From: Akkermansia muciniphila
GTDB taxonomy: Bacteria > Verrucomicrobiota > Verrucomicrobiia > Limisphaerales > UBA9464
NCBI GenBank assembly: GCA_945898055.1
Contig: CAMDGV010000013.1
Span: forward strand, 1 to 64,000
Direction of reading: 5' to 3'
Length of the DNA: 64,000 nt
Shown: positions 7,661 to 61,747 of the stretch, one piece after another
Position numbering within the stretch: the first letter of the stretch is position 1
How the letters are laid out: each line of letters starts with the position of its first letter
Translations under genes and position numbers: made by a program
Notes under the pieces: model-generated
Seen by the model: the letters and a program-made list of their open reading frames with translations, nothing else
The model's database searches: none
Told to the model about the DNA's origin: nothing

Positions 7661-7919
7661 ACGAAAGTAAAACTCGTCTTTTTAAATAACCTCCATTTAC
7701 AGGCGGACCCGGGGGGCATATTCTCCGTCTTCAACCCTGCAATCCTTGCCTAATGGACCTTTCTATCGACACCCTTGAAGTTAGTTTTGAGGGTTTTCCT
7801 GTTAGAATACTGCTCTGGCCACTTCGGCATCGGGCCTTCTTTCAGCTGGTTTCAGGGTGTTCTGATGGACGTATTTCTTGTTTCTAAATTCTGCGTTAAA
7901 ACCTCCAATTGACATCACT

Positions 7920-8816: not shown

Positions 8817-8858
8817 TCGAGCACTCTGCCTCTTGAGATCACTTCCGAATTTGTCTTT

Positions 8859-9845: not shown

Positions 9846-9871
9846 TTTAACTTCTTTGCTTTCATTAGCCT

Positions 9872-11455: not shown

Positions 11456-12226
11456 ATGATTCACTTAACTGATAAAATTGCGATCGTTACTGGGGCCGGC
11501 TCTGGCATTGGGGCGGCGATCGCTGTCTGTTTCGCGGAGGCAGGAGCTCGAGTGTATGTGGCTGATTGTAATGAAATAGCCGCGTTAGCAACGGTAGAAA
11601 TAATCGAGCAAAAGGGAGGTTGGGCCCGCGCTCAGTTCGTGGATATCGCTCAACAATCGGCGTGCAACTCACTCATCGAACAGGTGCTTTTGGAGAATAA
11701 CCAGCGCTGCGATGTGCTGGTGAATAACGCTGGAGTCGGGCACGTTGGGACTATTTTGACCACGGACCCATCCGATCTAGAACGGCTTTGGCAGATCAAT
11801 TTGCGAGGGGCTTATTTTCTCAGTCGCGCGGTGTTGCCAGCCATGATCGCTCAACGGTCTGGTTCGATTATTCATGTGGCTTCCATCGCCGGCGTAATGG
11901 GAATGGAAGCTCGATTTGCTTACACCGTCACCAAACACGCCGTGGTGGGAATGACCCGTGCTATGGCGATGGATTATGGAACCACGGGCGTTCGTATCAA
12001 TTGCATCTGTCCGGGCCGAGTACAAACCCCCTTCGTTGCCGCCCGACTGCTGGAATATCCGGATCCAGAGGCGTATCTGCGCCAAATGGAAGCCCCTCAC
12101 GCGATGAAGCGAATGGCTCAACCCTTCGAGATTGCCTCCGCAGCCCTCTATCTGGCGAGTGATGCTTCCTCCTTTGTGACTGGCAGTGCGATGGTCGTCG
12201 ATGGAGGCTACACGGCCGGTAAATAG
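11456..12226 (+). CDS. SDR-family oxidoreductase (first of two)
   Basis: Classical short-chain dehydrogenase of 256 residues. The cofactor loop is TGAGSGIGAAIA; an Asp after the second strand (VYVADC) suggests NAD rather than NADP. NNAGVG is present, and the catalytic Ser and Tyr-x3-Lys (S-x12-Y in SIAGVMGMEARFAYTVTK) are intact. The C-terminus SSFVTGSAMVVDGGYTAGK is typical. It precedes the FAH-family hydrolase by 36 bases. This pairing resembles oxidative fucose/rhamnose-type pathways, in which an SDR oxidises a 2-keto-3-deoxy acid at C4 and an FAH enzyme cleaves the diketo acid. That role is inference; the substrate cannot be read from sequence. Confidence 0.88.
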   Translation: MIHLTDKIAIVTGAGSGIGAAIAVCFAEAGARVYVADCNEIAALATVEIIEQKGGWARAQFVDIAQQSACNSLIEQVLLENNQRCDVLVNNAGVGHVGTILTTDPSDLERLWQINLRGAYFLSRAVLPAMIAQRSGSIIHVASIAGVMGMEARFAYTVTKHAVVGMTRAMAMDYGTTGVRINCICPGRVQTPFVAARLLEYPDPEAYLRQMEAPHAMKRMAQPFEIASAALYLASDASSFVTGSAMVVDGGYTAGK

Positions 12227-12262
12227 TCAGTTGGATAGAAATTCTCTTACCCTTTTATTTTT

Positions 12263-13072
12263 ATGCGCATTATTCGTTATCAAGATCCACACGGTATCAT
12301 CCACTACGCATCGCAACAAAGTGACGGATCAGCTCTGCAGATTCTCGGCGATATTTTTGGTGAGTATCAGGTCACCGACATTGCCGCGCAGATAAGTAAG
12401 TTACTGGCACCGATTGCGCCGCCCGTCCTTTTTTGTATTGGATTAAATTATAGGCGTCATGCTGAGGAAGGCCGAGCACCGATCCCAGAGTTTCCCATCC
12501 TTTTTATGAAATCACCTGCGGCAGTTCAGAATCCAGGTGACGCCATTATTTTGCCCCGTCATTTGAACAGTGACGAAGTGGATTATGAATGTGAATTGGC
12601 CGTGGTGATCGGGAAGCGGTGTAAGAATGTGTCGAAAGAAGAGGCCTTAGACTTTGTCCTAGGCTACACCTGTGCCAACGATGTGAGTGCTCGAGATTGG
12701 CAAATCAAACGGGGCGGGAGCCAGTGGTGTCGTGGTAAAACCTTCGACACCTTTGCTCCACTTGGCCCCTGTCTGGTGCTTAAGGATGAAATTCCCAATC
12801 CAAATACGCTCGGGATTAAGACCGTGCTCAATGGGAAAACCATGCAGGACTGGAATACGAACGACATGATCTTTGACGTACCGACATTGATCGCTTTTCT
12901 CAGCGGCAGCACAACGTTAGTCCCTGGCACCGTCATTCTGACTGGGACGCCCCACGGGATCGGGGCGGCCATGAAGCCACCGGTATTCCTGCAAGCGGGC
13001 GACACCGTGACCATTGAGATTGAGAAAATTGGATCTTTGACCAACCCAGTGGTGGCTGAGTCGGCACTGTAG
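12263..13072 (+). CDS. Fumarylacetoacetate hydrolase (FAH) family protein
   Basis: Protein of 269 residues with an N-terminal ~60-residue cap and a C-terminal FAH fold. The start of the fold is FCIGLNYRRHAEE, and the metal-binding acidic residues are in DYECELAVVIGK and CANDVSARDWQ. KTFDTFAPLGPCLV and VILTGTPHGIG complete the family pattern. Known relatives hydrolyse C-C bonds in acylpyruvates and 2,4-diketo-3-deoxy sugar acids, giving pyruvate and a second acid. Coming just after an SDR and before an MFS carrier, a hydrolase of a diketo sugar acid is a reasonable guess, with ureidoglycolate lyase or an acylpyruvase as alternatives. ATG start, no Shine-Dalgarno sequence. Confidence 0.87.
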   Translation: MRIIRYQDPHGIIHYASQQSDGSALQILGDIFGEYQVTDIAAQISKLLAPIAPPVLFCIGLNYRRHAEEGRAPIPEFPILFMKSPAAVQNPGDAIILPRHLNSDEVDYECELAVVIGKRCKNVSKEEALDFVLGYTCANDVSARDWQIKRGGSQWCRGKTFDTFAPLGPCLVLKDEIPNPNTLGIKTVLNGKTMQDWNTNDMIFDVPTLIAFLSGSTTLVPGTVILTGTPHGIGAAMKPPVFLQAGDTVTIEIEKIGSLTNPVVAESAL

Positions 13073-13094
13073 GCGTTTACTAAACCGCCTGCTT

Positions 13095-14420
13095 ATGTCC
13101 CAGAGCCTGCCCATCGATTCCGGCGCCCTTCGCAAAAAGGTCGCTTGGCGAGTGCTCCCCTTGGTTTTCATGCTTTATATTGTCTCGTATTTGGACCGCG
13201 CCAATGTGGCCTTTGCTAAACTACGAATGGCCGGAGATTTAAAATTTACGGAAGGGGTTTTTGGTTTGGGAATTAGTGTGTTTTTTATCGGTTATCTGTT
13301 TCTTGAAATACCGGGGGCCTTGCTCGTTGAACGATGGAGCGCGCGAAAGTGGTTTTCACGTATTTTGATCACTTGGGGCTGCATTTCAGCGCTTACCGCT
13401 TTTGTGCAAACGCCGACCCAATTTTATCTGGTGCGCTTCTTTTTAGGGGTGGCAGAGGCCGGATTTTTTCCGGGTATTATTGTCTATTTCACCCACTGGT
13501 TTGCGCAAGAAGATCGCACCCGAGCTCTCTCAGGACTCCTGATGGCCGTTCCATTTAGTCTGGCCTTGGGAGCTCCCGTCTCAGCGTTGCTCCTGGATGT
13601 TCATTGGTTGGGTTTGTTAGGGTGGCAATGGCTTTTCATCGTGGAAAGCCTGCCGGCGATTGCCCTTGGCATCGGGGTACTGTGGTGGTTGACGGATCGC
13701 CCGCAGGATGCCCAGTGGCTGACCCCGGCGGAACGTGATTATTTGGATGCGGTACTCAGAAAAGAGGCTGAAGCTAAAGAGGTCGGTGGGAAAATTAGCA
13801 TTCTGCAAGCTCTTCGCTTACCGACGGTCTGGCTCTTGGTGCTCGGCGTTCTTGTCGCAAATAGTGGAGGGTACGCACTGACTTTTTGGCTTCCGACAAC
13901 TGTGAAAAATCTCTCGGGCGGTTCAGATCGAGCTACTTTGCTCTATAGCGGACTGTATTACACCTGCGGTATGGTGGGGGTCTTTGTCTCAGGTCAATCG
14001 GCAGACCGCACCGGTGATCGGAAATGGCATGCAGTGGGTGGAATGCTTGGGACCGGCCTATTGCTTTCGTGCAGTGTGATTCCGGGACAAAATTTTCCCC
14101 TGCAAATGATGTGGCTCTGTCTCACCGCACTCAGCGCGTTTTTCTGGATTTCTCCCTTCTGGACCTTACCGACTTTGACCCTGAATGCGTCCGCGGCGGC
14201 GGTGGCGATTGGATTAATTAATATGGCGGCGAACCTCGCCGGCTATCTTGGGAATCATGCCACGGGATGGTTAAGATCTCAGGGTTACGGGGAAAGAATC
14301 TGCCTTCTCTTTCTTGCCGCTTGCTTTGTGGCGGGTGCCGGGATTATTAGCGGGCTAAAAATTAATCCAGCACCAAAGCGACTCACCGACTTTCAATCGC
14401 CTTTGACCAAACTGAAGTGA
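13095..14420 (+). CDS. MFS transporter, anion:cation symporter (ACS) family
   Basis: Inner-membrane carrier of 441 residues with about twelve transmembrane helices. The first helix region, LVFMLYIVSYLDRANVAFAK, is the classical ACS-family opening (YLDRxNxxFA), and EIPGALLVERWSARKW and RFFLGVAEAGFFPGIIVY are also diagnostic. ACS carriers take up small organic anions such as hexuronates, galactonate, tartrate and phthalate, usually with protons. The position between the FAH hydrolase (22 bases) and the E1 gene (36 bases) points to uptake of the pathway substrate, most likely a sugar acid. Specificity is inferred from family and context only. Confidence 0.9.
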   Translation: MSQSLPIDSGALRKKVAWRVLPLVFMLYIVSYLDRANVAFAKLRMAGDLKFTEGVFGLGISVFFIGYLFLEIPGALLVERWSARKWFSRILITWGCISALTAFVQTPTQFYLVRFFLGVAEAGFFPGIIVYFTHWFAQEDRTRALSGLLMAVPFSLALGAPVSALLLDVHWLGLLGWQWLFIVESLPAIALGIGVLWWLTDRPQDAQWLTPAERDYLDAVLRKEAEAKEVGGKISILQALRLPTVWLLVLGVLVANSGGYALTFWLPTTVKNLSGGSDRATLLYSGLYYTCGMVGVFVSGQSADRTGDRKWHAVGGMLGTGLLLSCSVIPGQNFPLQMMWLCLTALSAFFWISPFWTLPTLTLNASAAAVAIGLINMAANLAGYLGNHATGWLRSQGYGERICLLFLAACFVAGAGIISGLKINPAPKRLTDFQSPLTKLK

Positions 14421-14456
14421 TAAATGATCCCGTTTCTCATCCAACTTGATTTCTGA

Positions 14457-16445
14457 ATGACGCTCTCTTCTTCACGCCCGGAACTTCATTTGTACCGCAC
14501 TCTGCTGCTCATTCGACTTGTCGAGGAACGGTTGGCAAAATCGCATCAACGCGGACTAATCCATGGAGCGTGTCATACCTATGTCGGTCAGGAGGCCATT
14601 GCCACCGGAGTCTGTGCGCATTTGCGAGATGACGATGCGATCTTTAGCACTCACCGAGGGCATGGACACGCCTTAGCAAAGGGGTTGGATGCAGTGCAAC
14701 TGATAGCCGAACTCTATGGACGAGAAATCGGTTGCTCCCGCGGGCGTGGGGGCTCGATGCATTTGTTTGCACCAGAAATTGGATTACTGGGAACGAGTGG
14801 CATCGTCGGGCCCTGTATCTTGCAAGCAACGGGTGCGGGCTACGGCTTCAAGCTGATGAAAACCGATCGTGTCGCCGTTGCTTTCTTTGGCGATGGAGCC
14901 GTCAATAATGGGGCCTTTCATGAAGGACTGAACATGGCCAGCATCTGGAAACTTCCCGTCCTGTTTGTCTGTGAAAACAATCAATTCGCGACGGAAGTCC
15001 CTTTTGCCAGTGTCGCAGGCAATTCCAGTGTGGCAGCACGGGGCATCGCCTATGGACTGCCGTCGGTGGAAGTCGATGGGAACAATGTCCTCGCGGTAGC
15101 CTCCCTTGCTGGCGAGGCTATTCAGCGTGCTCGGAACGGCGAAGGTCCCACCCTCATTGAATGCAAAACCTATCGCACCCGACCGCACGCTGAAGGGATG
15201 GGAGACTTTACTTACCGCAGTCGTGAAGAGGTCGAGTTGTGGAAAAACCAATGCCCGATTGCTCGACTGAAACAGCATCTGCTTGACCAAAATTTAGCGA
15301 GCCTAGCAGAGATCGAGGCGATCGGATTAGAGCTAGCTCAACAGACTGACGCCGCCCATCAATTGGCGGAGCAGAGTGCTTATCCTGCGCCCGAGACGGC
15401 GACAGATCACGTTTTTGCTGCCGTTTCAGGGTTGGGGTCGCGCGATAGTCCAGAGGATCCTGGTTCGACTCGAGAATTGACCTTTATGAAGGCCACTCTT
15501 GAAGCGTTGACTGAGGAAATGGCTAAAAATCCAAAGATTTTTGTCTTAGGGGAGGGGATAGGAGTGCGAGGCGGCAACTTTGCAACGACGAGTGGCTTGT
15601 ATGGGATTTACGGTCCTGAACGCTTGCGCGACACTCCGATCTGCGAGCGCGGTTTTGTCGGTCTTGCCGGTGGGGCAGCGATGGCGGGCACCCGGCCGGT
15701 TGTGGATTTTATGTTCGCGGATTTTGTGCTCGATGCAGCGGGGGAAATCATTAATCAAATTGCAAAAATGCAATATATGAGCAGTGGGCGTCTGAAGATG
15801 CCGGTCCTCCTTCGTGGCTGCATCGGAGTGGGGCACGCTGCCGCCACTCACCACTCGGGCAGTTACTACGCGATGTACGCCAACTTCCCCGGTCTCCGTG
15901 TAGTGGTGCCATCATCGCCTCGGGATGCAAAAGGGCTTTTGAAGACGGCACTCACTTGTGATGATCCCGTTCTTTTTCTTGAACATCGCGAGTTAATGAC
16001 GCTGAAAGGCCCGGTGCCCGAAGAGGAATACTTCATCGATTTCGGCCAAGCTGCGGTGGTTCGCTCAGGAACAGATATCACGGTAGTGGCTCTCGCTTTG
16101 ATGGTTCATAAGACTCTGGCCGCTTGTGCGACTTTGGATGCCGAAGGACTCTCGGTCGAACTGATCGATCCACGCACGGTAGCCCCACTTGACGCAGAAA
16201 CGATTTTGAAATCGGTCGCTAAAACCGGGCGATTATTGATTGTTGATGAATCCTTTGGTCCCTGCGGAATTGGTGCGGAAATTGCCGCTCAACTCGCAGA
16301 TCGTGGCTTCGATTTTCTCGATGCCCCCATCCGACGTCTTAACGGTAAACAGTCTCCCACACCCTACAGTCCTTCGCTCGAGGCGGTGGTTGTGCCGACT
16401 GTTGAAACCATCGCTCAAGCCATTCGTGATTTGTGCGCAGACTAA
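14457..16445 (+). CDS. Fused alpha-beta E1 of a 2-oxoacid dehydrogenase complex
   Basis: Thiamine-diphosphate enzyme of 662 residues that decarboxylates a 2-oxo acid and passes the acyl unit to the lipoyl group of E2. Residues 1 to about 320 are the alpha half: FSTHRGHGHALAKG, SRGRGGSMHLF, and the ThDP motif beginning GDG at 145-147 (GDGAVNNGAFHEG). The beta half begins near residue 342 (MKATLEALTEEM) with FVLGEGIG, ERGFVGLAGGAAMAGTRPV and VLLRGCIGVGHAAATHHSG. Both halves look complete. Separate alpha and beta genes are the rule in acetoin and pyruvate dehydrogenase operons, so the fusion is notable. The E2 gene follows by 15 bases; no E3 gene is nearby. The substrate could be pyruvate or a longer 2-oxo acid. 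Confidence 0.9.
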   Translation: MTLSSSRPELHLYRTLLLIRLVEERLAKSHQRGLIHGACHTYVGQEAIATGVCAHLRDDDAIFSTHRGHGHALAKGLDAVQLIAELYGREIGCSRGRGGSMHLFAPEIGLLGTSGIVGPCILQATGAGYGFKLMKTDRVAVAFFGDGAVNNGAFHEGLNMASIWKLPVLFVCENNQFATEVPFASVAGNSSVAARGIAYGLPSVEVDGNNVLAVASLAGEAIQRARNGEGPTLIECKTYRTRPHAEGMGDFTYRSREEVELWKNQCPIARLKQHLLDQNLASLAEIEAIGLELAQQTDAAHQLAEQSAYPAPETATDHVFAAVSGLGSRDSPEDPGSTRELTFMKATLEALTEEMAKNPKIFVLGEGIGVRGGNFATTSGLYGIYGPERLRDTPICERGFVGLAGGAAMAGTRPVVDFMFADFVLDAAGEIINQIAKMQYMSSGRLKMPVLLRGCIGVGHAAATHHSGSYYAMYANFPGLRVVVPSSPRDAKGLLKTALTCDDPVLFLEHRELMTLKGPVPEEEYFIDFGQAAVVRSGTDITVVALALMVHKTLAACATLDAEGLSVELIDPRTVAPLDAETILKSVAKTGRLLIVDESFGPCGIGAEIAAQLADRGFDFLDAPIRRLNGKQSPTPYSPSLEAVVVPTVETIAQAIRDLCAD

Positions 16446-16460
16446 TTAACCCGTCCTAAA

Positions 16461-17633
16461 ATGCCCGTCGAAATCACCTTGCCAAGGCTCGGTTGGTCTA
16501 TGGAAGAGGGCACCTTTCTCGGGTGGCTCAAAAAGGACGGTGACACCGTTCAGGAAGGCGAACCGATTTTTTCCCTGGAAAATGAGAAAGCCGCACAAGA
16601 CGTCGAGTCGACCGACTGGGGCATCTTGTCTATCCTCTCCTCCGCTCCGAAGTCGGGTGCTGTCGTTAAAGTGGGCTGTCTGCTGGGGTATTTGCTAAAA
16701 CCAGGGGAGGCCCTTCCACTCGTAATCTCGCCAATCAGTGCCGTGACCGTGTCTGCTGCGGCGAGTCCTCGATCGCTTTTTAACGCACCGACTCGGCCGC
16801 ATCAGAAGGGGGCTCCGGCCAGTCCACGGGCACGTCGTGCGGCGAGGGAAAACCAGATTGATTTAGCGACCCTTCATTCAACCGGTCGCGGGGGGCGTAT
16901 TCGAGAACGTGATGTCCTTGCCAAGGTCGGTTCGAAGCCTTTGGCCCAGTCGCAGACGGTGCCGATCACCGCCCTCAGACGCACCATCGCTGAACGGATG
17001 CTGCAGAGCCTTCAAAAGACGGCCCCGGTGACCCTCCACTGCCGTTGCGATGCCACAAGTTTGGTGGCACTGCGTCTTCGACTGAAAGCTATCGACTCAG
17101 AGATTGCTGTTCCTAGTTACACGGACATCATCGCAAAGCTAACCGCCAGCGCACTGAGCAATCACCCAATGCTCGCTGGTCGCTGGGATGATCCGTGTAT
17201 CCGATTACCGGATGCGATTCATATCGGGGTCGCCGTCGACACAGAACAAGGTTTGGTCGTACCGGTCTTGCGTAATGTGTCAGATTTAAGTTTATCTGAG
17301 ATCGCTCAGCAGTCGCATCGCCTGATCAAATTGGCTCGAAACAGAGGTCTGAAACCTGCCGACGTGCAAGGGAGTTGCTTCACCCTGACCAACCTTGGGC
17401 ACTTGGGTATCGAAGCCTTCACGCCGATTATTAACTACCCTGAAACAGCCATCCTAGGACTGGGCGCCATTGTTCGTGACCCCGTCGCCTTAGCCGATGG
17501 CACGCTCACCGCTCGAGACCAATTAACTCTTAGCTTAACCTTTGATCATCGCATCGTTGATGGAGCACCGGCGGCCCGCTTTTTGCAGAACTTGCGTCAA
17601 TCTATTGAAGCTCCTCTTGACTGGTTACTCTAA
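16461..17633 (+). CDS. Dihydrolipoamide acyltransferase (E2)
   Basis: E2 core of a 2-oxoacid dehydrogenase complex, 390 residues. Domains in order are one lipoyl domain (1-80; attachment site Lys43 in LENEKAAQD), a Pro/Ala-rich linker, a peripheral-subunit-binding domain (about 120-156, ASPRARRAARENQI through GRIRERDVL), and the catalytic domain. The catalytic motif is intact: His363 and Asp367 in FDHRIVDGAP. The single lipoyl domain and short length fit acetoin-type or small pyruvate-type complexes. It is encoded right after the fused E1 and must borrow a lipoamide dehydrogenase from elsewhere in the genome. Family firm, acyl substrate unknown. Confidence 0.9.
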   Translation: MPVEITLPRLGWSMEEGTFLGWLKKDGDTVQEGEPIFSLENEKAAQDVESTDWGILSILSSAPKSGAVVKVGCLLGYLLKPGEALPLVISPISAVTVSAAASPRSLFNAPTRPHQKGAPASPRARRAARENQIDLATLHSTGRGGRIRERDVLAKVGSKPLAQSQTVPITALRRTIAERMLQSLQKTAPVTLHCRCDATSLVALRLRLKAIDSEIAVPSYTDIIAKLTASALSNHPMLAGRWDDPCIRLPDAIHIGVAVDTEQGLVVPVLRNVSDLSLSEIAQQSHRLIKLARNRGLKPADVQGSCFTLTNLGHLGIEAFTPIINYPETAILGLGAIVRDPVALADGTLTARDQLTLSLTFDHRIVDGAPAARFLQNLRQSIEAPLDWLL

Positions 17634-17657
17634 TTTTCAGTGGTCCCTTGATCCTCT

Positions 17658-18437
17658 ATGCAAGCCAACCTCCAGAACCAAGTCGCCCTAGTCACCGGTG
17701 CCGCTAACGGGATCGGTCGAGCCATTGCTGACCGGTTTGTGATCAATGGGGCCACCGTTTTTTACACCGATGTTCATTCAGTCGCCGTCGAGGCGGCAGC
17801 AAAACAAGGCGGCGGACAAGCTTTGGTCTTAGATGTGACTCAGCCTGCACAAATTGAATCGGCTCTGCGCACCGTGCTAGATCGCGTTGGACGCTTGGAT
17901 ATTGTGGTCAATAACGCCGGGATTAATACCCTCGGACATCGCGTTACCATCGATGAATTCCCGCGTGAAGAATGGGATCGAATCATTGCTGTTGACCTGA
18001 CCGGTCTTTACGAAGTGAGCCGTGCCGCGGCAAAAATCATGCGGATCCAGCAGAGTGGGCGCATTATTAACATTTCATCCGTTGCCGGACTTGTACCGCT
18101 CAGACTGCAATGCGCCTTCACCGCTGCCAAGGCGGGTGTCAATAATCTGACTCGTGCCATGGCCATAGAACTCGGGCAGGACGGTATTTTGGTTAATGCG
18201 ATCGCTCCGGGGTCGATTATGACCGATGGCACAAAAAAACTATTCTATGCTGAAGGCGGTTTGTTCCATAGCAACGTTCAGCGACTGATCGATCATATCC
18301 CCCTCGGCCGCCCCGGAACTGTCGATGAAATTGCGGTTGCGGCCCTCTTTCTTGCTGCACCAGAAAACACCTTCACCACCGGCCATATCTTAGTGGTCGA
18401 TGGAGGTTGGACTGCAGGTTATCTTCGAGAATTTTAA
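17658..18437 (+). CDS. SDR-family protein with Phe in place of the catalytic Tyr
   Basis: Short-chain dehydrogenase fold of 259 residues. The cofactor loop TGAANGIGRAIA, the Asp at the end of the second strand (VFYTDV), NNAGIN and a C-terminal TTGHILVVDGGW are all present. However, the active-site YxxxK position reads CAFTAAKAG: residue 154 is Phe (codon TTC at 18117-18119), with Lys158 and Ser141 in place. Tyr is the acid/base in nearly all classical SDRs, so this copy may be inactive, work by another mechanism, or bind without turnover; a sequencing error (TAC to TTC) would also explain it. Spacing from E2 is 24 bases, in the same operon. Fold firm, activity doubtful. Confidence 0.85.
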   Translation: MQANLQNQVALVTGAANGIGRAIADRFVINGATVFYTDVHSVAVEAAAKQGGGQALVLDVTQPAQIESALRTVLDRVGRLDIVVNNAGINTLGHRVTIDEFPREEWDRIIAVDLTGLYEVSRAAAKIMRIQQSGRIINISSVAGLVPLRLQCAFTAAKAGVNNLTRAMAIELGQDGILVNAIAPGSIMTDGTKKLFYAEGGLFHSNVQRLIDHIPLGRPGTVDEIAVAALFLAAPENTFTTGHILVVDGGWTAGYLREF

Positions 18438-18472
18438 AGTCATTTGTCAGGTTGATAGTAAATTAAACCAAT

Positions 18473-19510
18473 ATGAACCGTCGCTCTTTCCTCGCCACCG
18501 CCGCCACCGCGGTTAGTGCCACCGCCACCGCAATCGGTTCACAAAGAGACTGGACCGGTCGAGAACCGGTTCGCTACCCCGATCCAGACATTCAGTCCCT
18601 TAACCCTCGGTTTGAAAAATACAAAATTGGGAATACTCCGATAAAGCGTGAATGGACCGGCGGGCTCTGGACCGAAGGGGTCGCTTGGAGCGGGAGCGGA
18701 CGTTATTTAATCTGGAGCGATATCCCTAATAACCGCCAGATGCGTTGGTTGGAAGAAGACGCGCACGTGAGTGTTTTTCGCAATCCTTCGGGGCACAGCA
18801 ATGGCAACACCTTCGATTGGCAGGGGCGTCAAATTTCCTGCGAACACAGTGGGCGCCGCGTTGTTCGGTATGAGTTAAACGGTACCCTCTCAGTGCTCGC
18901 CGAGACTTGGGAAGGGAAACCCTTTAACGCGCCCAATGATCCGGTGGTACATCCGGACGGAGGGATTTGGTTTACCGATCCAGGCTACGGCAGTATGGGC
19001 AATTACGAGGGAAATAAAGCCGAACTCGAAATCAAAGAGGCTGTTTATCGAATTGATCCTGTGACGACCAAAATCCAGAGGGTTACTGACGATTTACATA
19101 AGCCGAATGGTCTCTGTTTCTCGCCGGACTATAAAAAACTTTATATTAGTGAGACCGGTGGTCCTGATCCGAAGGGTATTCGCATTTATGATGTCCTTGA
19201 CGGCAAAAAACTCAAAGGAGGGCGTCTCTTTACCCTTATGCCGCTCCATTTAACGGGCCCCAAGGGAGTGGCCGATGGGATGCGTACCGATGTGGATGGC
19301 AATCTTTGGGCCAGCGCCGGTTGGGGTGGAGAGGGCTTTGACGGTGTTCATATTTTTGCACCTGACGGAGTGCGAATCGGGAAGATTTTGTTGCCGGAGC
19401 CAGGCTCAAATGTTTGTTTTGGCGGTGCTCGAAGAAATCGTCTCTTCATTACCGCGGGCCAATCACTCTACTCTGTCTACGTCGAAACAAAGGGAGCACA
19501 CATTGCTTAA
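18473..19510 (+). CDS. SMP-30/gluconolactonase-family protein, Tat-exported
   Basis: Six-bladed propeller lactonase family, 345 residues. It begins MNRRSFLATAATAV, a twin-arginine (Tat) signal, so it should act in the periplasm. Family landmarks are WTEGVAWSGSGRYLIWSDIP, the metal-site block FNAPNDPVVHPDGGIWFTDP, and HKPNGLCFSPDYKKLYISET. Relatives open gluconolactone or other sugar lactones with a divalent cation. In this operon it would turn an external lactone into the aldonate that the ACS carrier (13095-14420) imports (inference). ATG start with an A/T-rich leader and no Shine-Dalgarno sequence. It lies 35 bases after the second SDR. Confidence 0.87.
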   Translation: MNRRSFLATAATAVSATATAIGSQRDWTGREPVRYPDPDIQSLNPRFEKYKIGNTPIKREWTGGLWTEGVAWSGSGRYLIWSDIPNNRQMRWLEEDAHVSVFRNPSGHSNGNTFDWQGRQISCEHSGRRVVRYELNGTLSVLAETWEGKPFNAPNDPVVHPDGGIWFTDPGYGSMGNYEGNKAELEIKEAVYRIDPVTTKIQRVTDDLHKPNGLCFSPDYKKLYISETGGPDPKGIRIYDVLDGKKLKGGRLFTLMPLHLTGPKGVADGMRTDVDGNLWASAGWGGEGFDGVHIFAPDGVRIGKILLPEPGSNVCFGGARRNRLFITAGQSLYSVYVETKGAHIA

Positions 19511-19652: not shown

Positions 19653-22600
19653 ATGTTCCGATCAATCAGCCTCCGTGCCACTTTTTTATTTGTGGCTTTA
19701 ATCTCGCTTGTGGCCGGGCGGGCGGAGGTCACTTTTCAGCCTCAAGCTACGGTTCTTTTTTATGGGAATTCATTGATTGAACGCTTGAGCGAGCAGGGTG
19801 AACTTGAGGCGCTGATCCAATTAACGCAGCCGGATAAAAACCTGCGCTTTGTCAGTTTTGCCTGGACTGGTGACGAAGTGGGCTACCGGTTGCGGCCCGA
19901 AGGCTATGAGGCGCATATGAAGTCGCTCATCCAGTTGTGGCCCGCCAAAGTGGTGATCGTGGGCTTCGGAATGAACGAGTCCTTTGCCGGTGCGCTTGGG
20001 TTGGCGGATTTCCGTCAACAGTTAGAGCTCTATCTTAATCAGTTGGCCCGTTTTCACCCCGCAGCTCAATGGGTCTTGCTGTCTCCTACGGCGGTAGAAT
20101 CAGGTGGACAGGGACCCGATCGTGTCGCCCGCAATCGGGACCTCGCCTTGTACGCGCAGGCTGTGGGTGAAACGGCAAAGGCACGTAATGCGGTGTTCGT
20201 TGATTTGTTCACTGCCAGTCAGCAGGCGTATGCCACGAGTCAAGTACGACTGACCGCCAACGGATTGCATCTCAATGACGCGGGTAATCGGCAGATGGCG
20301 AGGTTCATCGCCGCTGCGCTTCTCGGTGAGTCGGCAGTGGCAAAGGTGCCTTCGGTGCGGATAGCAGAGGTGGCTAAGGCAGTAGCTCGAAAAAACTATT
20401 ATGTGGCGGAAGTTGTTCGCCCGAAAAATGCCGATCTGTATTACGGCGTCCGGAAACGGGCTGAGGAGAATGCGACTGAAATTCCTCGTTACCACCAGAT
20501 GATTGCAGCGACAGAAGCCGTAGTTCAGAAACTTGTGACCCAGCCTGCAAGGAAGTTTGCTGATCAACCTCTTCCGTGGTTGCCACCGCTCGAAGCGATC
20601 AAGGGTCGGGACGATGGTAAAAGCACCGGTATCATTCGGCCTCCCGCAGAGGCCTTGGCAGAATTTAAGGTTGCCGAGGGATTTAAGGTCAGTCTTTTCG
20701 CCTCAGAAGTGGAATTTCCTGAGTTGAAAAATCCCGTTCAAATTGCCTTCGACGCCCGAGGACGGCTTTGGGTTGTGACGATGCCCTCTTTTCCTCATAC
20801 CGTTCCAGGGTTGCCTCCCCAGGATAAAATTCTCCTGCTGGAAGACACTGATCACGATGGTAAAGCAGACACCTGTACCACCTTTGCCGAAGGGTTAGAT
20901 GCACTGGACGGAATCGCCTTTAGTGAATGGGGCGTGATTGTTTCCGAGCAACCGAAACTCTGGTTAATGACCGATACCAACGGTGACGGTAAAGCGGACA
21001 CAAAAAGTGAGCTTTTTCGGGGCATCGACGTCACTGATTCGCATCATGGCGGAATGATTGCCACGGATCCTCTAGGACATGTTTTGTTTTGCGACGGGGT
21101 CTTCCACCGTTCCCAACTGGAGACTCCTTTTGGTGTTGTGCGCGGTATTGATGCCACGACTTATCGACTCAACCCCCGCAGCGGTCGGGTTGAAACAGAA
21201 TGGCAAAGCAACACCCCGAATCCGTGGAAAATTACCTATGATCGGACGGGTAATATTTTTCAAATGTATGGGGACGGTATCCCACTGGATACGCTGCTCC
21301 TTACTTGGACCCCGCTCGGCGTTTATCATCCCTTCGGCCACGGCAATACCGGCAGCAATGGTAAAGGATCGGCTGCGGCCAGTATTTCTAGTGTGAACTT
21401 TCCCGTGGAGTATCAACAAGGCATGGTAACGGCGTCGCTGCTCGGTAATTACACGGTTTCACTTTGGAAATATGATTATGACCAAGGGCGGGTTCATGGC
21501 TCGCAGCGGCTCGATGTTGTTTCCTCACCTAACGCCGCATTTCGGCCGGCCGATGTCGCCTTCGGCATGGATGGGGCCCTCTACATTTCAGATTTTTGCA
21601 GCCCGATAATTGGTCATGCCCAACATGCCATGCGGGACCCGAATTGGGATCACGAACATGGTCGGATCTGGCGAGCAGTGTATCAGGGGCGTCCGCTCCT
21701 TAAGCAGTTCCCACGTATCGAAGGTGCAACGGTTCCGACGCTGCTCGCGCTTCTCCAAGATCCCCAGGATATTGTTCGTCATCATGCTCGCATCGAACTT
21801 AGGAAATCGGGTCAGGCTATTATCCCGACCCTCGATAAGTGGATTGCCGCACTCGACCGTGAAAAACCCGAGTTTGATCAGTCGGCGTTGGAAGCCCTCT
21901 TTGTCGCTGAAGGACTTGAACAAACGCGACCCGCTTTGCTGACAGAACTGCTGAAATCCAAATCGGCACTGCATCGCGGTGCAGCTGTTCGCATGGTGCG
22001 TTTCCAAGGAGACAGATTGCCTAACACCGCCGATCTCCTTCATCAGATGGCAACCGACTCTCATCCCCGTGTACAGATGGAAGTGGTGGATGCGATTGCA
22101 CATTTGCGTCCCACGTTACCCGCAGTGGAACACGCACTCCACGCGCTCAAGACCCAACACGAAGACGTTCAGCACATGCTGGGGGACCTTAAGCACGGAA
22201 CCAAGCCCGCCATAGGCCGCAGTGTGCCTGTCCTCGAAATAGCGCCAGAAACGCAACTCACTCAGTGGCTCGATATCGGCAACGGCACGCGTCGAACTTT
22301 CGTCCAAGCCGATAACGCACAGGCGGCTGTTCTGTCTGTTCGCTATGGCTATCTCGATGTTCAGGTCAATGGGGTCCAACTTCTCTCTACGGATTCGATG
22401 TGGATCAATGATCAACAAGTGCAACTAGACCTTCGAACCGGCCTTAATGTGATCGACATCACCTTCCGTAAAACTAAAAAGAAACCGTCTGTTTTTCTTT
22501 ATGATCCATTAGGGCAACGGTTGGTCAGCGCTCACCCGGCCGCCGATGCCAAGAATCTCGCCAGCCTGCTCGATCAATTTGACAAGGCTAACGCGAATCT

Positions 22601-22976
22601 AGGCGATGCCCTGATTGTTCAGGCTGTCCCAAACAAGATGCAGTTTGCTCCTAAAGAACTCCGGGTGAAATCGGGGACAAAGGTACGTCTCATCTTCGAG
22701 AATCCAGATCTGATGTTGCACAATCTTCTCATTCTCGCGCCGGGTTCGGCTGACGAAGTGGGTGCTCTTGCTGACCAGATGGCCACCAAGGCCAATAGTC
22801 TCTCGCAGGGCTATATTCCTGCATCCAAAAAAGTTCTCTATGCAACCCCTCTCGTCCAGCCGCGTCAAAAGGCAGAACTTCGCTTCGTTGCCCCGACTGA
22901 ACCGGGACGTTACCCGTACCTTTGTACCTTTCCTGGTCACTGGCGGATGATGCGCGGGGTGCTGGTGGTGGAGTAA
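19653..22976 (+). CDS. SGNH hydrolase - PVC dehydrogenase propeller - HEAT - cupredoxin fusion
   Basis: Exported multidomain protein of 1107 residues. Order: signal peptide (1-24); SGNH/GDSL-type hydrolase (about 33-230; FYGNSLIERL with Ser40, a GMNE block III, and NGLHLNDAG with His); a linker; a PVC-type dehydrogenase propeller (about 335-660; FKVAEGFKVSLFASEV, RLWVVTMPSFP, Asp/Gly-rich DTDHDGKADT and DTNGDGKADT); HEAT-like repeats; and a C-terminal cupredoxin (about 985-1107). The cupredoxin ligands are complete: His1023, Cys1091, His1096 and Met1100 in LCTFPGHWRMM, the azurin pattern. Related PVC proteins usually end in a cytochrome c domain. The frame is open from 19275, but the start at 19653 carries the signal peptide and avoids a long overlap with the lactonase gene. 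Likely a periplasmic sugar oxidase handing electrons to copper. Confidence 0.85.
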   Translation: MFRSISLRATFLFVALISLVAGRAEVTFQPQATVLFYGNSLIERLSEQGELEALIQLTQPDKNLRFVSFAWTGDEVGYRLRPEGYEAHMKSLIQLWPAKVVIVGFGMNESFAGALGLADFRQQLELYLNQLARFHPAAQWVLLSPTAVESGGQGPDRVARNRDLALYAQAVGETAKARNAVFVDLFTASQQAYATSQVRLTANGLHLNDAGNRQMARFIAAALLGESAVAKVPSVRIAEVAKAVARKNYYVAEVVRPKNADLYYGVRKRAEENATEIPRYHQMIAATEAVVQKLVTQPARKFADQPLPWLPPLEAIKGRDDGKSTGIIRPPAEALAEFKVAEGFKVSLFASEVEFPELKNPVQIAFDARGRLWVVTMPSFPHTVPGLPPQDKILLLEDTDHDGKADTCTTFAEGLDALDGIAFSEWGVIVSEQPKLWLMTDTNGDGKADTKSELFRGIDVTDSHHGGMIATDPLGHVLFCDGVFHRSQLETPFGVVRGIDATTYRLNPRSGRVETEWQSNTPNPWKITYDRTGNIFQMYGDGIPLDTLLLTWTPLGVYHPFGHGNTGSNGKGSAAASISSVNFPVEYQQGMVTASLLGNYTVSLWKYDYDQGRVHGSQRLDVVSSPNAAFRPADVAFGMDGALYISDFCSPIIGHAQHAMRDPNWDHEHGRIWRAVYQGRPLLKQFPRIEGATVPTLLALLQDPQDIVRHHARIELRKSGQAIIPTLDKWIAALDREKPEFDQSALEALFVAEGLEQTRPALLTELLKSKSALHRGAAVRMVRFQGDRLPNTADLLHQMATDSHPRVQMEVVDAIAHLRPTLPAVEHALHALKTQHEDVQHMLGDLKHGTKPAIGRSVPVLEIAPETQLTQWLDIGNGTRRTFVQADNAQAAVLSVRYGYLDVQVNGVQLLSTDSMWINDQQVQLDLRTGLNVIDITFRKTKKKPSVFLYDPLGQRLVSAHPAADAKNLASLLDQFDKANANLGDALIVQAVPNKMQFAPKELRVKSGTKVRLIFENPDLMLHNLLILAPGSADEVGALADQMATKANSLSQGYIPASKKVLYATPLVQPRQKAELRFVAPTEPGRYPYLCTFPGHWRMMRGVLVVE

Positions 22977-23066: not shown

Positions 23067-24578
23067 TCAGGCTAAGCAACGACGAAAACCTGCATTCAAG
23101 GCATCGCGGTCCAGATTTCGGCCGATAAAAACTAACTGGCTTTTGCGATCTAGTTCACTCTTCCAAGGGCGGTCTGGTTTGCCTTCAAAAAGCATATGAA
23201 CTCCTTGGAACACAAAGCGATTGGACTGGCCTTTGATGTTCAGAATTCCTTTCATTCTAAAAATATCTTGTCCCTTGGATTGCAGGAGTTCGCTTAGCCA
23301 AGCATTGAGCTTCTTGGAATCTAACTCGCGACGCTCCTCGATGCCGACACTAGTCACACTCTCGTCGTGAGTATGAGCGTGGGTATGACCGCCATGTTCG
23401 TGAATATGACCTGGCTCAATCGCTGTTCCCTCTTTCTCAAGGCGCCCCTTAAACTCATCGAGTCCATGCTGGGTAAACAAGGCGTAATTACCGTGCGCAG
23501 GAATCCGAACCGTCGCAGTCAATCCGTCTTCTCCGAGGATCAGTTTATGTAAGATTTTTCCGGGTTTAATCACCCCACCCTGACGAACTGCGGTACCGAT
23601 GCCTCCAAAAACAATTTCCGCAATCGACTCAGCTTCATGCAAAGCGTCGTGCATTCCTCCGTCGCACTCTTTGTCCTCTTCGTGCCCATGCTCGTGCCCA
23701 TGCTCGTGCCCATGCTCGTGCCCATGCTCGTGCCCATGCTCGTGCCCATGCTCGTGCCCATGCTCGTGTTCGTGTTCGTGTTCGTGTTCGTGCTCGTCAT
23801 GGGAATGAGTGTCTAGCTGCAATAGCACCACTCCCATTAGGGCATCTGGGCCCGCTTCAAGCCGGAGGAGGTGATCGCCAGTCTCCAAGTGATAGGTTGC
23901 ACTCCATTCAAACGGCAGGGATTTCTCGAGAAAATCTCCATCCAGAGTTAGTTTATGGTCGAGGTCAAACGCATGGATATCGATGACTTGCTCCACCGAT
24001 AAATTAGATTGCTGCGTATGATGAAACGGAGCGACCGCATTAATGGCTCGAAGCTGTTTCTCCAGATGGGCTAATTCATCGGGGGTGACCAAGTCGATTT
24101 TGTTCAACACAATTCGATCAGCAAAGGCCACTTGTTGTTTGGCTTCTGGGGCTTCGTGCAAATGGAGTGGTAGATGTTTGACATCGACCAAAGTCACAAT
24201 GCCGTCCAAACGGAAATGCTCCTTGATTTCATCGTCACTGAAGAAGGTCTGCGCGACCGGCCCTGGGTCAGCCAACCCGGTGGTCTCGACTAGCACATAG
24301 TCAAACCGATCCTTTCGTTTTAAGAGTTGACCAAGGATTCGGATGAGGTCGCCGCGGACGGTACAACAGAGGCATCCGTTGTTCATTTCGAAGATTTCCT
24401 CATCTGCTTGGATCACCAGTTCATTATCAATACCGATTTCACCAAATTCATTCTCGATGACGGCAATTCGTTTACCGTGTTTAGCGGTAAGAATTCGATT
24501 GAGAAGCGTGGTCTTTCCTGAGCCGAGGAATCCGGTAAGGACCGTGACCGGAATGCGCGTAGCTGGGTTGGTGGGCAT
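23067..24578 (-). CDS. CobW/COG0523-family GTPase with a long His-rich metal-binding loop
   Basis: Metal-chaperone GTPase of 503 residues (G3E family). The Walker A is [10 protein letters not shown] (15-24), the family motif CLCC covers 69-72 ([13 protein letters not shown]), the Walker B region is [10 protein letters not shown], and NKIDLV is the guanine-specificity motif. A CobW C-terminal domain follows (about 340-490). Between the domains, residues ~261-300 are a run of alternating His and Glu/Gly; a second His cluster ([15 protein letters not shown]) follows. COG0523 proteins insert or traffic Zn, Co or other metals, and His-rich members are mostly linked to zinc. The length exceeds the usual 320-400 because of the His region. 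No cobalamin or nitrile hydratase genes are near, so zinc is the best guess. Confidence 0.88.
23681..23797 (-). repeat. In-frame tandem repeat coding for the His-rich loop
   Basis: On the + strand, seven exact copies of the 12-mer CGTGCCCATGCT run from 23681 to 23764, followed by four copies of the 6-mer CGTGTT (23765-23788) and one variant. Read on the minus strand they give Gly-His-Glu-His units and then Glu-His pairs. The identity at third codon positions shows recent expansion by slippage or unequal exchange; the unit lengths (12 and 6) keep the frame. Confidence 0.9.
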
Positions 24579-59137: not shown

Positions 59138-61747
59138 CTATCGCAGTTTTAACAACTCCGCTTCGGTCCAAGAATCCTCTCGCTTGGATTCACTTTGGCG
59201 GATGTTGCGGACTAACTCGATGTTAACAGGTTCACCGGTGTGATCCCATTCACGGCGAATATAGGTCAGGACATCGGCGATTTGCCGATCATCGAGGGCT
59301 TCGGCGAGCGCGGGCATATTCAACTCGTACCGGACCCCTTTCACGGTTAGGGCGTCACGAACGCCGTGGAGCACGATTCGGATTAAGCGTTGGTCCGATC
59401 CTAGCACCCACTCTGAATCCACTAGCGGAGGTGCTAGCCCCTCTTGTCCTCGTCCATGGGGTTGATGACAAGCACCACAAAGAGTCGGATAGACCTCACG
59501 TCCTCGCTCAATGCTGGCGGCGAATTCAGCATTAATGGCCCGCACCGGCGTCTGTATTTCCAGCTCCATTCCAGGCTTTCCTGCCCAGGAAAAGAGGGAT
59601 TCCACCTTCTTAAATCGTGAGACGACTTCCGGCTCAATTCGGGTGCGTAAGGCTTTCAATCCCGCGGGTTCGCTCGGAAGCATCAAGGTCTTTTGTTTCG
59701 GACTGCCCGCCACTTTGACCGGAACTGCGGTTAACGCAAAGCCATCGAGAATCGCTACCATCCGACGGTCATTCGGCGGTCGATTGGCTGCCAAGGCTAG
59801 CGTACTTGAAATGGCATCAGCATTGCCCGAGATCATCACACATTGAGCCAGTCGCGAGAATAAAGGTAAGTGATCGTCTCCTCCGATAGGATTGGCCGGG
59901 TCCGTCAATAGCCTCTGGAGAAAAGTGAACTCTCGACCTCGGAGACCGCTCACTGCTGAATCAAATCGCAGCTTAGAACCGGGATAATTCAGCAGCAGAG
60001 ATTGCATCACTGGTTCCGCCTGTGCTGCCGGAAGATCTCCTAAAGTTAAGAGCAGTTGGGAATGAGATTCAGTCGAGAGTCGCCCCACATTCGAATAAAG
60101 GATCTTTAGGAAAGACTCACGCTGAGGGCCTGAGGCCGAGGCACTGAGAACTCTCAAGGCAGCGCGCTGAACTCGAGGGTCGGGATCAGTCAGGGCCGAC
60201 GCTAGAAGTTCCGGTCGGAGGGCTCGCATCCCTTCCAAAGTCCAGAGTGCTTGCACCCGACCTAACGCTGAAGTTGTTGCCGAAATCAGTAATCCGCTGA
60301 GTGCCTTTTCGGTGTCGGGTTCGGGCGACTGAATTAAAAGCCGCTGAGCTGTATCACGCCAAAACCCATTGCTATCGGAGAGTCGACTTAATTTGTCGGC
60401 GAGTGAAGGCCGCTCCGACCACGCTTTGGTTCGCTCAGGTTTCTTGCCGGCATGAACAATCCGATAAATTCGCCCCAGATCCAAAGGCCCCTGCAGTTGC
60501 CGCGATTCAATCTGTTTGCGCAGATAACTGGTCAAATAAATACGGTGTTGGATCAAGCCTCGGGCCATGTCGACAATGTAGAGGGCACCGTCGGGGCCGT
60601 TTTGTAAGGAGACCGGTCGGAAGCGTTCGTCGGTCGAGGTTAGGAACTCCGATTCGGGATAGGCATTGGTTGCCTGCAACACGCCATCGGAGGTTCGAAT
60701 ATGATTGCGGCGAATGAGATTGGCACTGGGTTCACAGAGGAAAACATCTCCCTGATAGTCTTTTGGAAATTGATCACCACGATACACCAGCGGACCACAA
60801 GCGGCTGTGAATTGATCCAAACGCCCGTTTGCCGCGAGTGTCTTGGGTTGGTAACCACGATTCACTCCTGGGTTCACTCGACTTGGCCACACTTTTTGGC
60901 TCGCAGCCAATTGAAAATTGAGTCCGAAGGGTTGCCTTAAATTGGGGTTACGAGCGAGGGCATTCCCCGGCAGTAGGTCCGCTCGGATCTGGTCGGAATT
61001 CGAATTATAGAAGAGTCGCCCTTCATCGTCCTGAGTGATGCCCCACTGCCCACGAAAGGCGGTTTCCTCTGCCACCCAATTGGTCGGCGAGCCGCCCCCG
61101 TGACGATACCGTGTGGTGTGGTTGGCCGAATAAATCCAGTTATCGAGAGCTAAAAGCAGACCATTACTTGCATGTTCCGGATTGGACTTTGCACCAAGCG
61201 ATGGGTTGTTTTGGTTGGCATAATCGGACGATACCAAAAGTTTTTCATCGGCTCGACCGTCTCCGTCGGTATCCCGCATAAACCAAAGGCGCGGAGGTTC
61301 CGCGATCAAGGCGCCCCCATGGGTTAACATGACCGCTCTTGGCATGACTAATTTATCCGCAAAAACCGTGCGACGATCCATCTGGCCGTCCCCATTTAAG
61401 TCACTCAAAATCACCACCGCCCCAAGAGGTTCTGGCTCCCCTGCCCCATCCGATGATCGCATATAGCCCGACATTTCCACCACCCAAAGGCGCCCTTGGT
61501 GATCGAATTGAATGGCGACCGGTGATTTTATAAGAGGTTCGGCAGCGACTAGCTCCGCAGTGAAGCCGAGCGGAAGCCGAAAGGATTTAATTTGATCTTC
61601 AGGTGATAAAACGGGGGCAGTTGGAATAAGGTGCGAAGCGACAACTTCCGACTGGATTTCACCCTGTTTATCTCCGCTTTGTCCAAGGGCTGACCTAGCA
61701 ACCACGGAGGCAACGGCAACGACTAAAAAAAAGAAACGAGGACACAT
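59138..61747 (-). CDS. PVC-type dehydrogenase with HEAT repeats and C-terminal cytochrome c
   Basis: Exported protein of 869 residues, first gene of a minus-strand operon. Order: signal peptide (1-22); dehydrogenase propeller (about 50-430; FRLPLGFTAELVAAEPLIKS, DTDGDGRADEKLL and NGPDGALYIVDMARGLIQHR); HEAT repeats (about 460-640); cytochrome c (CGACH, Cys757-Cys760-His761; PALAEALDDRQIADVLTYIR). This is the standard PVC arrangement. It is the haem counterpart of the cupredoxin fusion at 19653-22976. It probably oxidises a sugar or alcohol in the periplasm. Confidence 0.88.
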   Translation of the reverse strand: MCPRFFFLVVAVASVVARSALGQSGDKQGEIQSEVVASHLIPTAPVLSPEDQIKSFRLPLGFTAELVAAEPLIKSPVAIQFDHQGRLWVVEMSGYMRSSDGAGEPEPLGAVVILSDLNGDGQMDRRTVFADKLVMPRAVMLTHGGALIAEPPRLWFMRDTDGDGRADEKLLVSSDYANQNNPSLGAKSNPEHASNGLLLALDNWIYSANHTTRYRHGGGSPTNWVAEETAFRGQWGITQDDEGRLFYNSNSDQIRADLLPGNALARNPNLRQPFGLNFQLAASQKVWPSRVNPGVNRGYQPKTLAANGRLDQFTAACGPLVYRGDQFPKDYQGDVFLCEPSANLIRRNHIRTSDGVLQATNAYPESEFLTSTDERFRPVSLQNGPDGALYIVDMARGLIQHRIYLTSYLRKQIESRQLQGPLDLGRIYRIVHAGKKPERTKAWSERPSLADKLSRLSDSNGFWRDTAQRLLIQSPEPDTEKALSGLLISATTSALGRVQALWTLEGMRALRPELLASALTDPDPRVQRAALRVLSASASGPQRESFLKILYSNVGRLSTESHSQLLLTLGDLPAAQAEPVMQSLLLNYPGSKLRFDSAVSGLRGREFTFLQRLLTDPANPIGGDDHLPLFSRLAQCVMISGNADAISSTLALAANRPPNDRRMVAILDGFALTAVPVKVAGSPKQKTLMLPSEPAGLKALRTRIEPEVVSRFKKVESLFSWAGKPGMELEIQTPVRAINAEFAASIERGREVYPTLCGACHQPHGRGQEGLAPPLVDSEWVLGSDQRLIRIVLHGVRDALTVKGVRYELNMPALAEALDDRQIADVLTYIRREWDHTGEPVNIELVRNIRQSESKREDSWTEAELLKLR

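Follow-up and report, generated by a model that had tools for sequence, protein, structure and literature searches.

A Verrucomicrobiota propeller protein with a predicted blue-copper domain, and the exchange of haem and copper modules among its relatives

What kind of enzyme ends in a blue-copper domain where many of its relatives end in a cytochrome c, and do the two modules replace each other? This question is raised by an open reading frame (ORF) at 19653-22976 (+) of contig CAMDGV010000013.1 (assembly GCA_945898055.1, recorded as Akkermansia muciniphila; Verrucomicrobiota), within a stretch of 64,000 nucleotides, referred to here as the window. The original prediction described its product as a sugar dehydrogenase of the Planctomycetes-Verrucomicrobia-Chlamydiae (PVC) type in which a copper domain replaces cytochrome c, fused to an SGNH hydrolase. 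That observation holds and applies more widely than could be seen at the time: the copper module is well supported, and the architecture recurs in other genomes (34 loci in a scan across species).

Domain layout and the copper site

The C-terminal domain is an azurin/auracyanin-type cupredoxin with a predicted type-1 copper site, an assignment that is well supported and on which three kinds of search agree: Pfam Copper-bind (residues 991-1107, 4.8e-10; 40.2 bits against a cut-off of 21.2), sequence comparison with the PDB, where auracyanin A is the best match (2aan; E 1.3e-11, residues 994-1106), and Foldseek, which returned the auracyanins 6kol and 2aan (E 1.3e-8; template modelling (TM) score 0.87-0.88 by target length). 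The AlphaFold2 model of the whole chain, built from a 52-row alignment, is confident (mean predicted local distance difference test (pLDDT) 88.8, predicted TM score 0.80). The four ligands named by the original prediction, His1023, Cys1091, His1096 and Met1100, are exactly as stated there, and each is invariant in all 69 rows of an alignment in which the window protein stands under two handles, P0001 and L031 (other L numbers denote compared loci or proteins), alongside some near-copies. Moreover, the run Cys-Thr-Phe-Pro-Gly-His and the Cys-to-His and Cys-to-Met spacings are those of the azurin loop in the title of PDB entry 2hx9. A motif scan of the window ORF found no CxxCH haem site of the kind implied by the name of the TIGR02604 family, to which the propeller belongs.

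An ORF check and translation bear out the gene as it had been delimited: it encodes 1107 residues from the ATG at 19653, where the sequence, judged by eye, begins like a signal peptide, and the same frame is open upstream to an ATG at 19275, inside the preceding SMP-30-like gene. Ahead of the cupredoxin the chain comprises an SGNH fold (Pfam Lipase_GDSL_2 at residues 37-213, 9.8e-14; 52.7 bits against a cut-off of 32.9), a propeller assigned by both Pfam DUF7133 (best of two stretches at 331-537, 5.3e-54; 184.4 against 27) and NCBIfam TIGR02604 (170.8 bits against 122.2), and helical repeats (HEAT_2 at 761-838, 1.2e-9, above the curated cut-off). The segment between the HEAT and cupredoxin parts, modelled alone, forms a beta-sandwich (pLDDT 87.4) whose top structure matches are weak ones to CBM35 modules (best E 3.5e-4, TM ~0.40).

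Haem and copper modules on a common propeller core

Exchange of haem and copper modules on a common propeller core is supported by a survey of C-terminal domain types, in which 128 propeller proteins were classified by electron module and copper, haem, both together, and a cupredoxin in the next gene were all found. Among the 67 members with an SGNH domain, 42 have a cupredoxin, two a cupredoxin plus CxxCH, and one an adjoining cupredoxin-cytochrome gene, while 20 have CxxCH, one has neither module and one is cut by the contig. With tandem and next-gene cupredoxins coded as copper, and the "none" and "open" cases omitted, parsimony on a careful tree (56 of 83 rows) requires at least four changes of the haem/copper state within the SGNH clade; the clearest is seen where the haem protein L050 is sister to the cupredoxin protein L156 (support 100/99). 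A quick propeller tree of 75 of the 128 rows, with near-copies removed, gives six changes overall and four within the SGNH clade, several of its long branches being uncertain.

Exchange is not the only relation between the modules, since tandem and split forms also occur. In L063 a single frame reads SGNH-DUF7133-HEAT-Copper-bind-Cytochrom_C by Pfam, and in L093 a CxxCH motif follows the cupredoxin before the contig ends. This genome itself has a second system on contig C1, where an SGNH-propeller-HEAT protein is encoded in an 886-aa frame; 68 bases past its stop comes a gene whose 630-aa product scores above cut-off for Copper-bind as well as for Cytochrom_C. That protein and the window protein account for the genome's only two PF00127 matches (E <= 0.001), and both sit in propeller-linked systems. 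In 15 Bacteroidota loci the propeller gene is followed directly by a separate cupredoxin gene, with a frame of 185-234 aa. Thus, the description of a cupredoxin "instead of" cytochrome c fits many members but not L063, L093 or the two-gene form in this genome. Taken together, these arrangements (fused, tandem and adjacent) favour a functional pairing of propeller and copper, from the former to the latter, with haem as an alternative or as the next step.

As a haem counterpart the original prediction had taken the paralogue at 59138-61747, which is encoded on the minus strand, the plus strand there being full of stops. This protein is a relative with a propeller and a CGACH haem domain, but its HEAT match scores 18.6 against a cut-off of 27.7 and its row in the quick propeller tree (L010) falls outside the SGNH clade, so that it is not the nearest haem counterpart; the L036 group and, in this genome, L153 are examples of nearer ones. 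In a quick cupredoxin tree (57 of 114 rows, no bootstrap), enzyme-linked cupredoxins are split, with SH-aLRT 99, from one 199-aa protein and six free-standing azurins, which are what remained after thinning of the eight best such matches of a PF00127 search.

To assess how widely the architecture occurs, 288 genomes drawn from the phylum were scanned, two candidates being scored per genome, and a P0001-like protein (E <= 1e-60) was found in at least 20 of them. When each species was represented by a single genome, the scan yielded 79 loci, and in 34 of these the SGNH, propeller and fused cupredoxin lie in one ORF (32 with the cupredoxin, two with cupredoxin plus CxxCH). By record title, which makes the taxon counts rough, these 34 belong to Verrucomicrobiota (29), Bacteroidota (2), Planctomycetota (2) and Pseudomonadota (1, probably misnamed), and a propeller with a fused cupredoxin and no SGNH domain is found in 21 ORFs in 20 loci (17 Bacteroidota, 4 Verrucomicrobiota). 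The titles of L063, L064, L068 and others (Klebsiella pneumoniae, Prosthecobacter debontii, Akkermansia muciniphila) look misassigned, their genes being closely related. One search for relatives gave 45 matches, of which the 15 weakest have no locus. In a plasmid collection nine records matched, none covering more than 80% of the query; relatives there are labelled "SGNH/GDSL hydrolase family protein" and "PVC-type heme-binding CxxCH protein". This genome has 24 classified propeller ORFs: 20 with CxxCH, one with a fused cupredoxin, one with the next-gene cupredoxin-cytochrome, and two with neither.

The PF00127 search, which is independent of P0001, gave 66 matches in 37 of the 288 genomes, at least 22 of them within frames of >= 850 aa, a lower bound because the search misses some fused cupredoxins, e.g. 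G223:C1:2099130. Twelve of the 22 are SGNH-propeller-cupredoxin proteins; five are DUF6797 proteins by Pfam and two more are DUF6797-like in appearance; one is a 3-keto-disaccharide hydrolase with PA14 and one more looks similar; and in another the cupredoxin lies ahead of a propeller whose DUF7133 and GSDH matches are below cut-off. The DUF6797 proteins with a C-terminal cupredoxin (L170, L175, L177, L178, L186) represent a different redox-type family, and in several a TIM-barrel or laminin-G match precedes. L182 (3319-6081) joins 3-keto-disaccharide hydrolase, cupredoxin and PA14 in a single protein, and L183 looks alike.

Table 1. Features of the window discussed in the text (positions in the window)
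Feature	Position	Strand	Basis or remark
SMP-30/gluconolactonase-like gene upstream	18473..19510	+	no relative adjoining gene in 31 compared loci
Whole gene, SGNH-propeller-HEAT-beta-sandwich-cupredoxin	19653..22976	+	1107 aa
Signal-peptide-like N-terminal segment, residues 1-23	19653..19721	+	read by eye; modelled helix 2-21
SGNH-fold domain, residues ~33-230	19749..20342	+	Pfam, Foldseek (3rjt, 4jko)
Six-bladed propeller DUF7133/TIGR02604, residues ~331-680	20643..21692	+	Pfam, NCBIfam, structure match
HEAT-like helical repeats, residues ~690-846	21720..22190	+	HEAT_2 761-838; helices in model
CBM35-like beta-sandwich, residues ~870-965 (weak match)	22260..22547	+	model + structure search
Azurin/auracyanin-type cupredoxin, residues ~984-1107	22602..22973	+	Pfam, PDB sequence match, Foldseek
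His1023 copper ligand	22719..22721	+	invariant 69/69 aligned rows
Ligand loop Cys1091-His1096-Met1100	22923..22952	+	Cys, His, Met each invariant 69/69
Paralogue used for comparison, 869 aa (DUF7133, cytochrome c with CGACH)	59138..61747	-	Pfam

Probable catalysis by the propeller and the place of the SGNH domain

Taken as a whole, the observations are probably best explained by a secreted or periplasmic glycan oxidoreductase whose electrons leave through the tethered copper. Dehydrogenase activity of the propeller is likely but unproven, and the sequence and predicted fold point to it in several ways. The closest structural match of residues 329-678 is the AA12 enzyme 6i1q (Z 28.2 over 289 residues, 2.7 Å, VIA-align), with 6jt5 at Z 27.8; the pyrroloquinoline quinone (PQQ) aldose dehydrogenase 3a9g follows at Z 27.1 and soluble glucose dehydrogenase (sGDH) 1qbi at Z 25.4, the PQQ aldose and glucose dehydrogenases together spanning Z 24-27. 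A profile of the wider family matches 2g8s (2.1e-9) and 1c9u (5e-9) in the PDB. In sGDH, crystallography places His144, Arg228 and Asn229 at the quinone site, according to the portions of two papers drawn on here (PMC6881789, PMC6881810). In the SGNH clade, the aligned catalytic His corresponds to His465 (65 of 67) or His464 (67 of 67), the sequence alignment being possibly a residue off; the equivalent of the quinone-contact Asn229, Asn523, is kept in 67 of 67, and Arg631 is kept as well.

One may argue that the propeller is simply an ordinary PQQ sugar dehydrogenase of the sGDH/AA12 type, with copper as acceptor and PQQ scavenged from other bacteria. The fold and the retained His and Asn would suit this, and AA12 enzymes likewise lack sGDH Lys377 (PMC6881789, in part), yet we regard it as unlikely. 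At the position of sGDH Arg228, whose equivalent in CcPDH (Arg430) contacts the quinone and is ~94% conserved in AA12 according to the relevant portion of PMC6881810, the window protein has Pro522. Members of the SGNH clade have Pro (50), Ala (10) or another residue (7) there and Arg in 0 of 67, and none of the 67 has an Arg in the three residues preceding Asn523; among other family members, 13 of 61 have Arg at the aligned position, all these assignments coming from sequence alignment and possibly being off. Furthermore, pqqC is above cut-off in only six of the 288 genomes of the phylum, which belong to a single family. A search directed at the 20 genomes that encode a P0001-like protein, among them the present one, found it in none, and found it in the added control G042. 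The 14 control genomes of the pqqC search never gave a match, and positives within the phylum serve as the control. Carriers therefore do not make PQQ via pqqC, and self-made PQQ is probably not the cofactor. The term "sugar dehydrogenase" in the original prediction stays plausible from fold and partners, but without the usual PQQ arginine or pqqC.

Several further points, besides the missing PQQ-contact Arg and PQQ synthesis, weigh against the oxidoreductase. Non-redox propellers, namely a Diels-Alderase (24.0), SMP-30/lactonase-type proteins, DFPase and HHIP, reach Z 23-24, only 0-3 Z below the bacterial PQQ enzymes. The top row of the family-profile search is a WD-40 protein (9.7e-10), above the dehydrogenases, and the SGNH-clade propeller profile alone retrieved no sGDH from the PDB at E 0.1, its matches being teneurin-type NHL proteins and chance matches. 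The exact coupling to a 3-keto gene, described below, is limited to three loci of one order. In the literature found, which was seen in part, no member is reported to be redox-active. The sole wet-lab result there is for Lac161_ORF7, which comes from a clone assigned to Chthoniobacter and consists of TIGR02604, HEAT and cytochrome c parts; it released glucose from lactose, an activity that its authors call beta-galactosidase (PMC5342196, in part). Accordingly, a propeller acting as a hydrolase or lyase, SMP-30-like or beta-galactosidase, with the electron domain serving for docking or copper storage, has both that report and the SMP-30 and DFPase folds in its favour. It is nonetheless rather improbable: two unrelated kinds of carrier alternate and occur in tandem, which fits electron transfer and not storage or docking, and the glucose-release assay could in principle reflect oxidation followed by cleavage, a route that is conceivable for Lac161_ORF7.

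The original prediction also proposed a bifunctional esterase-dehydrogenase, in which the SGNH domain would cleave off acetyl or other ester groups, and oxidation of the sugar would fall to the propeller. The fold is not in question, as Foldseek returned GDSL esterases such as 3rjt and Axe2 (4jko), and Ser40, Asn108 and His206 are all present in the window protein; the predicted Asn at the DxxH Asp position is borne out by alignment (Asn203), so that the complete Ser-Asp-His triad is not found. Of the 67 SGNH domains, 32 have Ser at position 40; the others have Gly (20), Thr (7), Ala (4), another residue (3) or a gap (1) there. His occupies position 206 in 46 domains, and at position 203 there are 43 with Asn and nine with Asp. 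Asn108 is found in 63 and Glu109 in 66. Ser and His are both kept in 32, only two of which also have the Asp; one or both are lost in 34, and the remaining domain is cut there. Although 30 of the 45 copper-associated members keep Ser and His, the copper relatives L034, L077, L083 and L090 lack the Ser, and among the 20 haem members one keeps both residues and 16 lack both. An added esterase activity is hence doubtful, the bifunctional enzyme as a whole is quite improbable, and SGNH activity in the window protein in particular is possible but not favoured. Conservation of the fold despite erosion of the triad suggests a role in binding or structure.

Gene partners, proposed mechanism and comparison with known systems

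Clues to the substrate come from genes coupled to the family. In three Opitutales loci (L076, L080, L081) the TGA of the cupredoxin gene overlaps the GTG start (GTGA) of a gene in the 3keto-disac_hyd cluster, an assignment made by Pfam on the L076 member, with a signal-like start seen by eye. L095 also has a 3keto-disac_hyd neighbour, and its own relative of the window gene (6932-10165) is broken up into separate frames, whether through decay or through an error of assembly. Seven paralogues in the window's own genome were scanned: two are fused to 3keto-disac_hyd (L153, L027) and two to ThuA (L146, L148), and L144 has a polysaccharide-deacetylase match below cut-off. In L153 (G000:C56, ORF 5895-9653) one chain combines 3keto-disac_hyd, SGNH, DUF7133, HEAT and cytochrome c; in L027, Pfam finds 3keto-disac_hyd and cytochrome c, and the propeller was found only by a custom profile. 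Members of a sulfatase cluster, which was annotated from one of them, occur close to the gene in 13 of the 31 compared loci. In L074 (5879-12613) an SGNH-propeller-cupredoxin frame reads on without a stop into a sulfatase (Pfam). A 3037-aa open frame in L084 (2-9112) also runs, by eye, from SGNH-propeller-cupredoxin into a sulfatase. PF06439 has been tied to 3-ketoglycoside hydrolysis following a periplasmic lactose 3-dehydrogenase (PMC9007349, in part), and the couplings suggest that the products of the family may be oxidised glycosides.

The genes immediately upstream in the window were considered as the enzyme's pathway and set aside, since they have no relatives near the gene in the 31 compared loci save one short-chain dehydrogenase/reductase (SDR) in L094, an absence that is partial because some loci are short. 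This run (11456-19510, +) comprises an SDR, a fumarylacetoacetate hydrolase (FAH)-type hydrolase, a major facilitator superfamily transporter, an E1/E2 2-oxoacid dehydrogenase, an SDR and the SMP-30-like lactonase, and looks like a deoxy-aldonate pathway; the FAH-type hydrolase is nearest to 2,4-didehydro-3-deoxy-L-rhamnonate hydrolase, below cut-off. Downstream (23067-24578, -) lies a gene for a CobW-family GTPase, in which a long insert rich in His and Glu may bind metal.

Beyond domain content, copper ligands, module alternation and gene coupling in three loci, we infer a mechanism for the glycan oxidoreductase that includes redox catalysis, an electron path, the substrate, C3 chemistry and secretion. 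The sGDH/AA12-like propeller would oxidise a sugar of a glycan, possibly at C3, while the SGNH-like and CBM35-like domains would probably hold carbohydrate. The tethered C-terminal type-1 copper would take up electrons from the reduced active site and hand them on to a cytochrome c or into the respiratory chain; relatives would use haem c at the equivalent place, both carriers in tandem, or a cupredoxin from the next gene. The likely product would be a keto-glycoside, perhaps C3-keto, to be split by a neighbouring or fused 3-keto-disaccharide hydrolase. A bolder extension, which we offer tentatively, is that PVC bacteria and Bacteroidota share a large, so far unrecognised family of secreted glycan 3-dehydrogenases to which these proteins belong. 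Their sGDH-like propeller would work with a non-PQQ cofactor, and their electron exit would be a plug-in module (copper, haem c, or a two-step relay of copper then haem) that has been swapped repeatedly and derives from a single lineage of enzyme-tethered cupredoxins, which are mounted on 3-keto-disaccharide hydrolases and DUF6797 proteins as well.

Proteins of the TIGR02604 type have multiplied strongly, as the 24 propeller ORFs of this genome illustrate, and biochemistry was found for one member. With haem and copper alternating on a shared core, and with tandem and two-gene variants besides, the family offers a natural experiment in electron-carrier exchange. A tethered blue copper would also serve as a built-in reporter, with activity seen as loss of colour, which would allow direct substrate screening, and the missing PQQ arginine and PQQ genes make the cofactor a clear, testable question. 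No description of the fusion or the family was found in searches of open-licence PMC papers: the portion of the azurin survey PMC8779525 at hand does not contain "fusion", "multidomain" or "dehydrogenase", that of PMC5615132 on PSCyt proteins does not contain "copper" or "dehydrogenase", and that of PMC4807772 merely names "membrane-bound dehydrogenases" among highly represented families.

How does the window protein compare with known systems? With TIGR02604/DUF7133 proteins it shares the propeller, the HEAT repeats, the signal-like N-terminus and a terminal electron carrier, but it differs in having a cupredoxin in place of CxxCH haem, an N-terminal SGNH domain and a weakly CBM35-like domain before the cupredoxin. 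The same propeller and HEAT parts are found in Lac161_ORF7, which, as described in part of PMC5342196, is set apart by its cytochrome c terminus and has no SGNH or cupredoxin domain listed. With LacABC and DUF1080 the proposed logic is shared, namely periplasmic glycoside oxidation followed by PF06439 cleavage (PMC9007349, in part). In our case that link is drawn from gene coupling and fusions alone. To our knowledge, LacABC has no known relation to the TIGR02604-type propeller.

The AA12 enzymes CcPDH and TrAA12, and sGDH, have the same six-bladed propeller (Z 24-28) with aligned catalytic His and Asn, and CcPDH likewise bears a tethered electron-transfer domain, a cytochrome b, according to portions of PMC6881789 and PMC6881810. 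In contrast to these enzymes, the window protein lacks the Arg228 equivalent and the 20 carrier genomes lack pqqC; relative to AA12/CcPDH it also has copper instead of haem and additional SGNH, HEAT and weakly CBM-like parts. Finally, its C-terminus shares with auracyanin and azurin the fold, all four copper ligands and the azurin-type spacing of the Cys-His-Met loop, but here the cupredoxin is a domain within a large enzyme.

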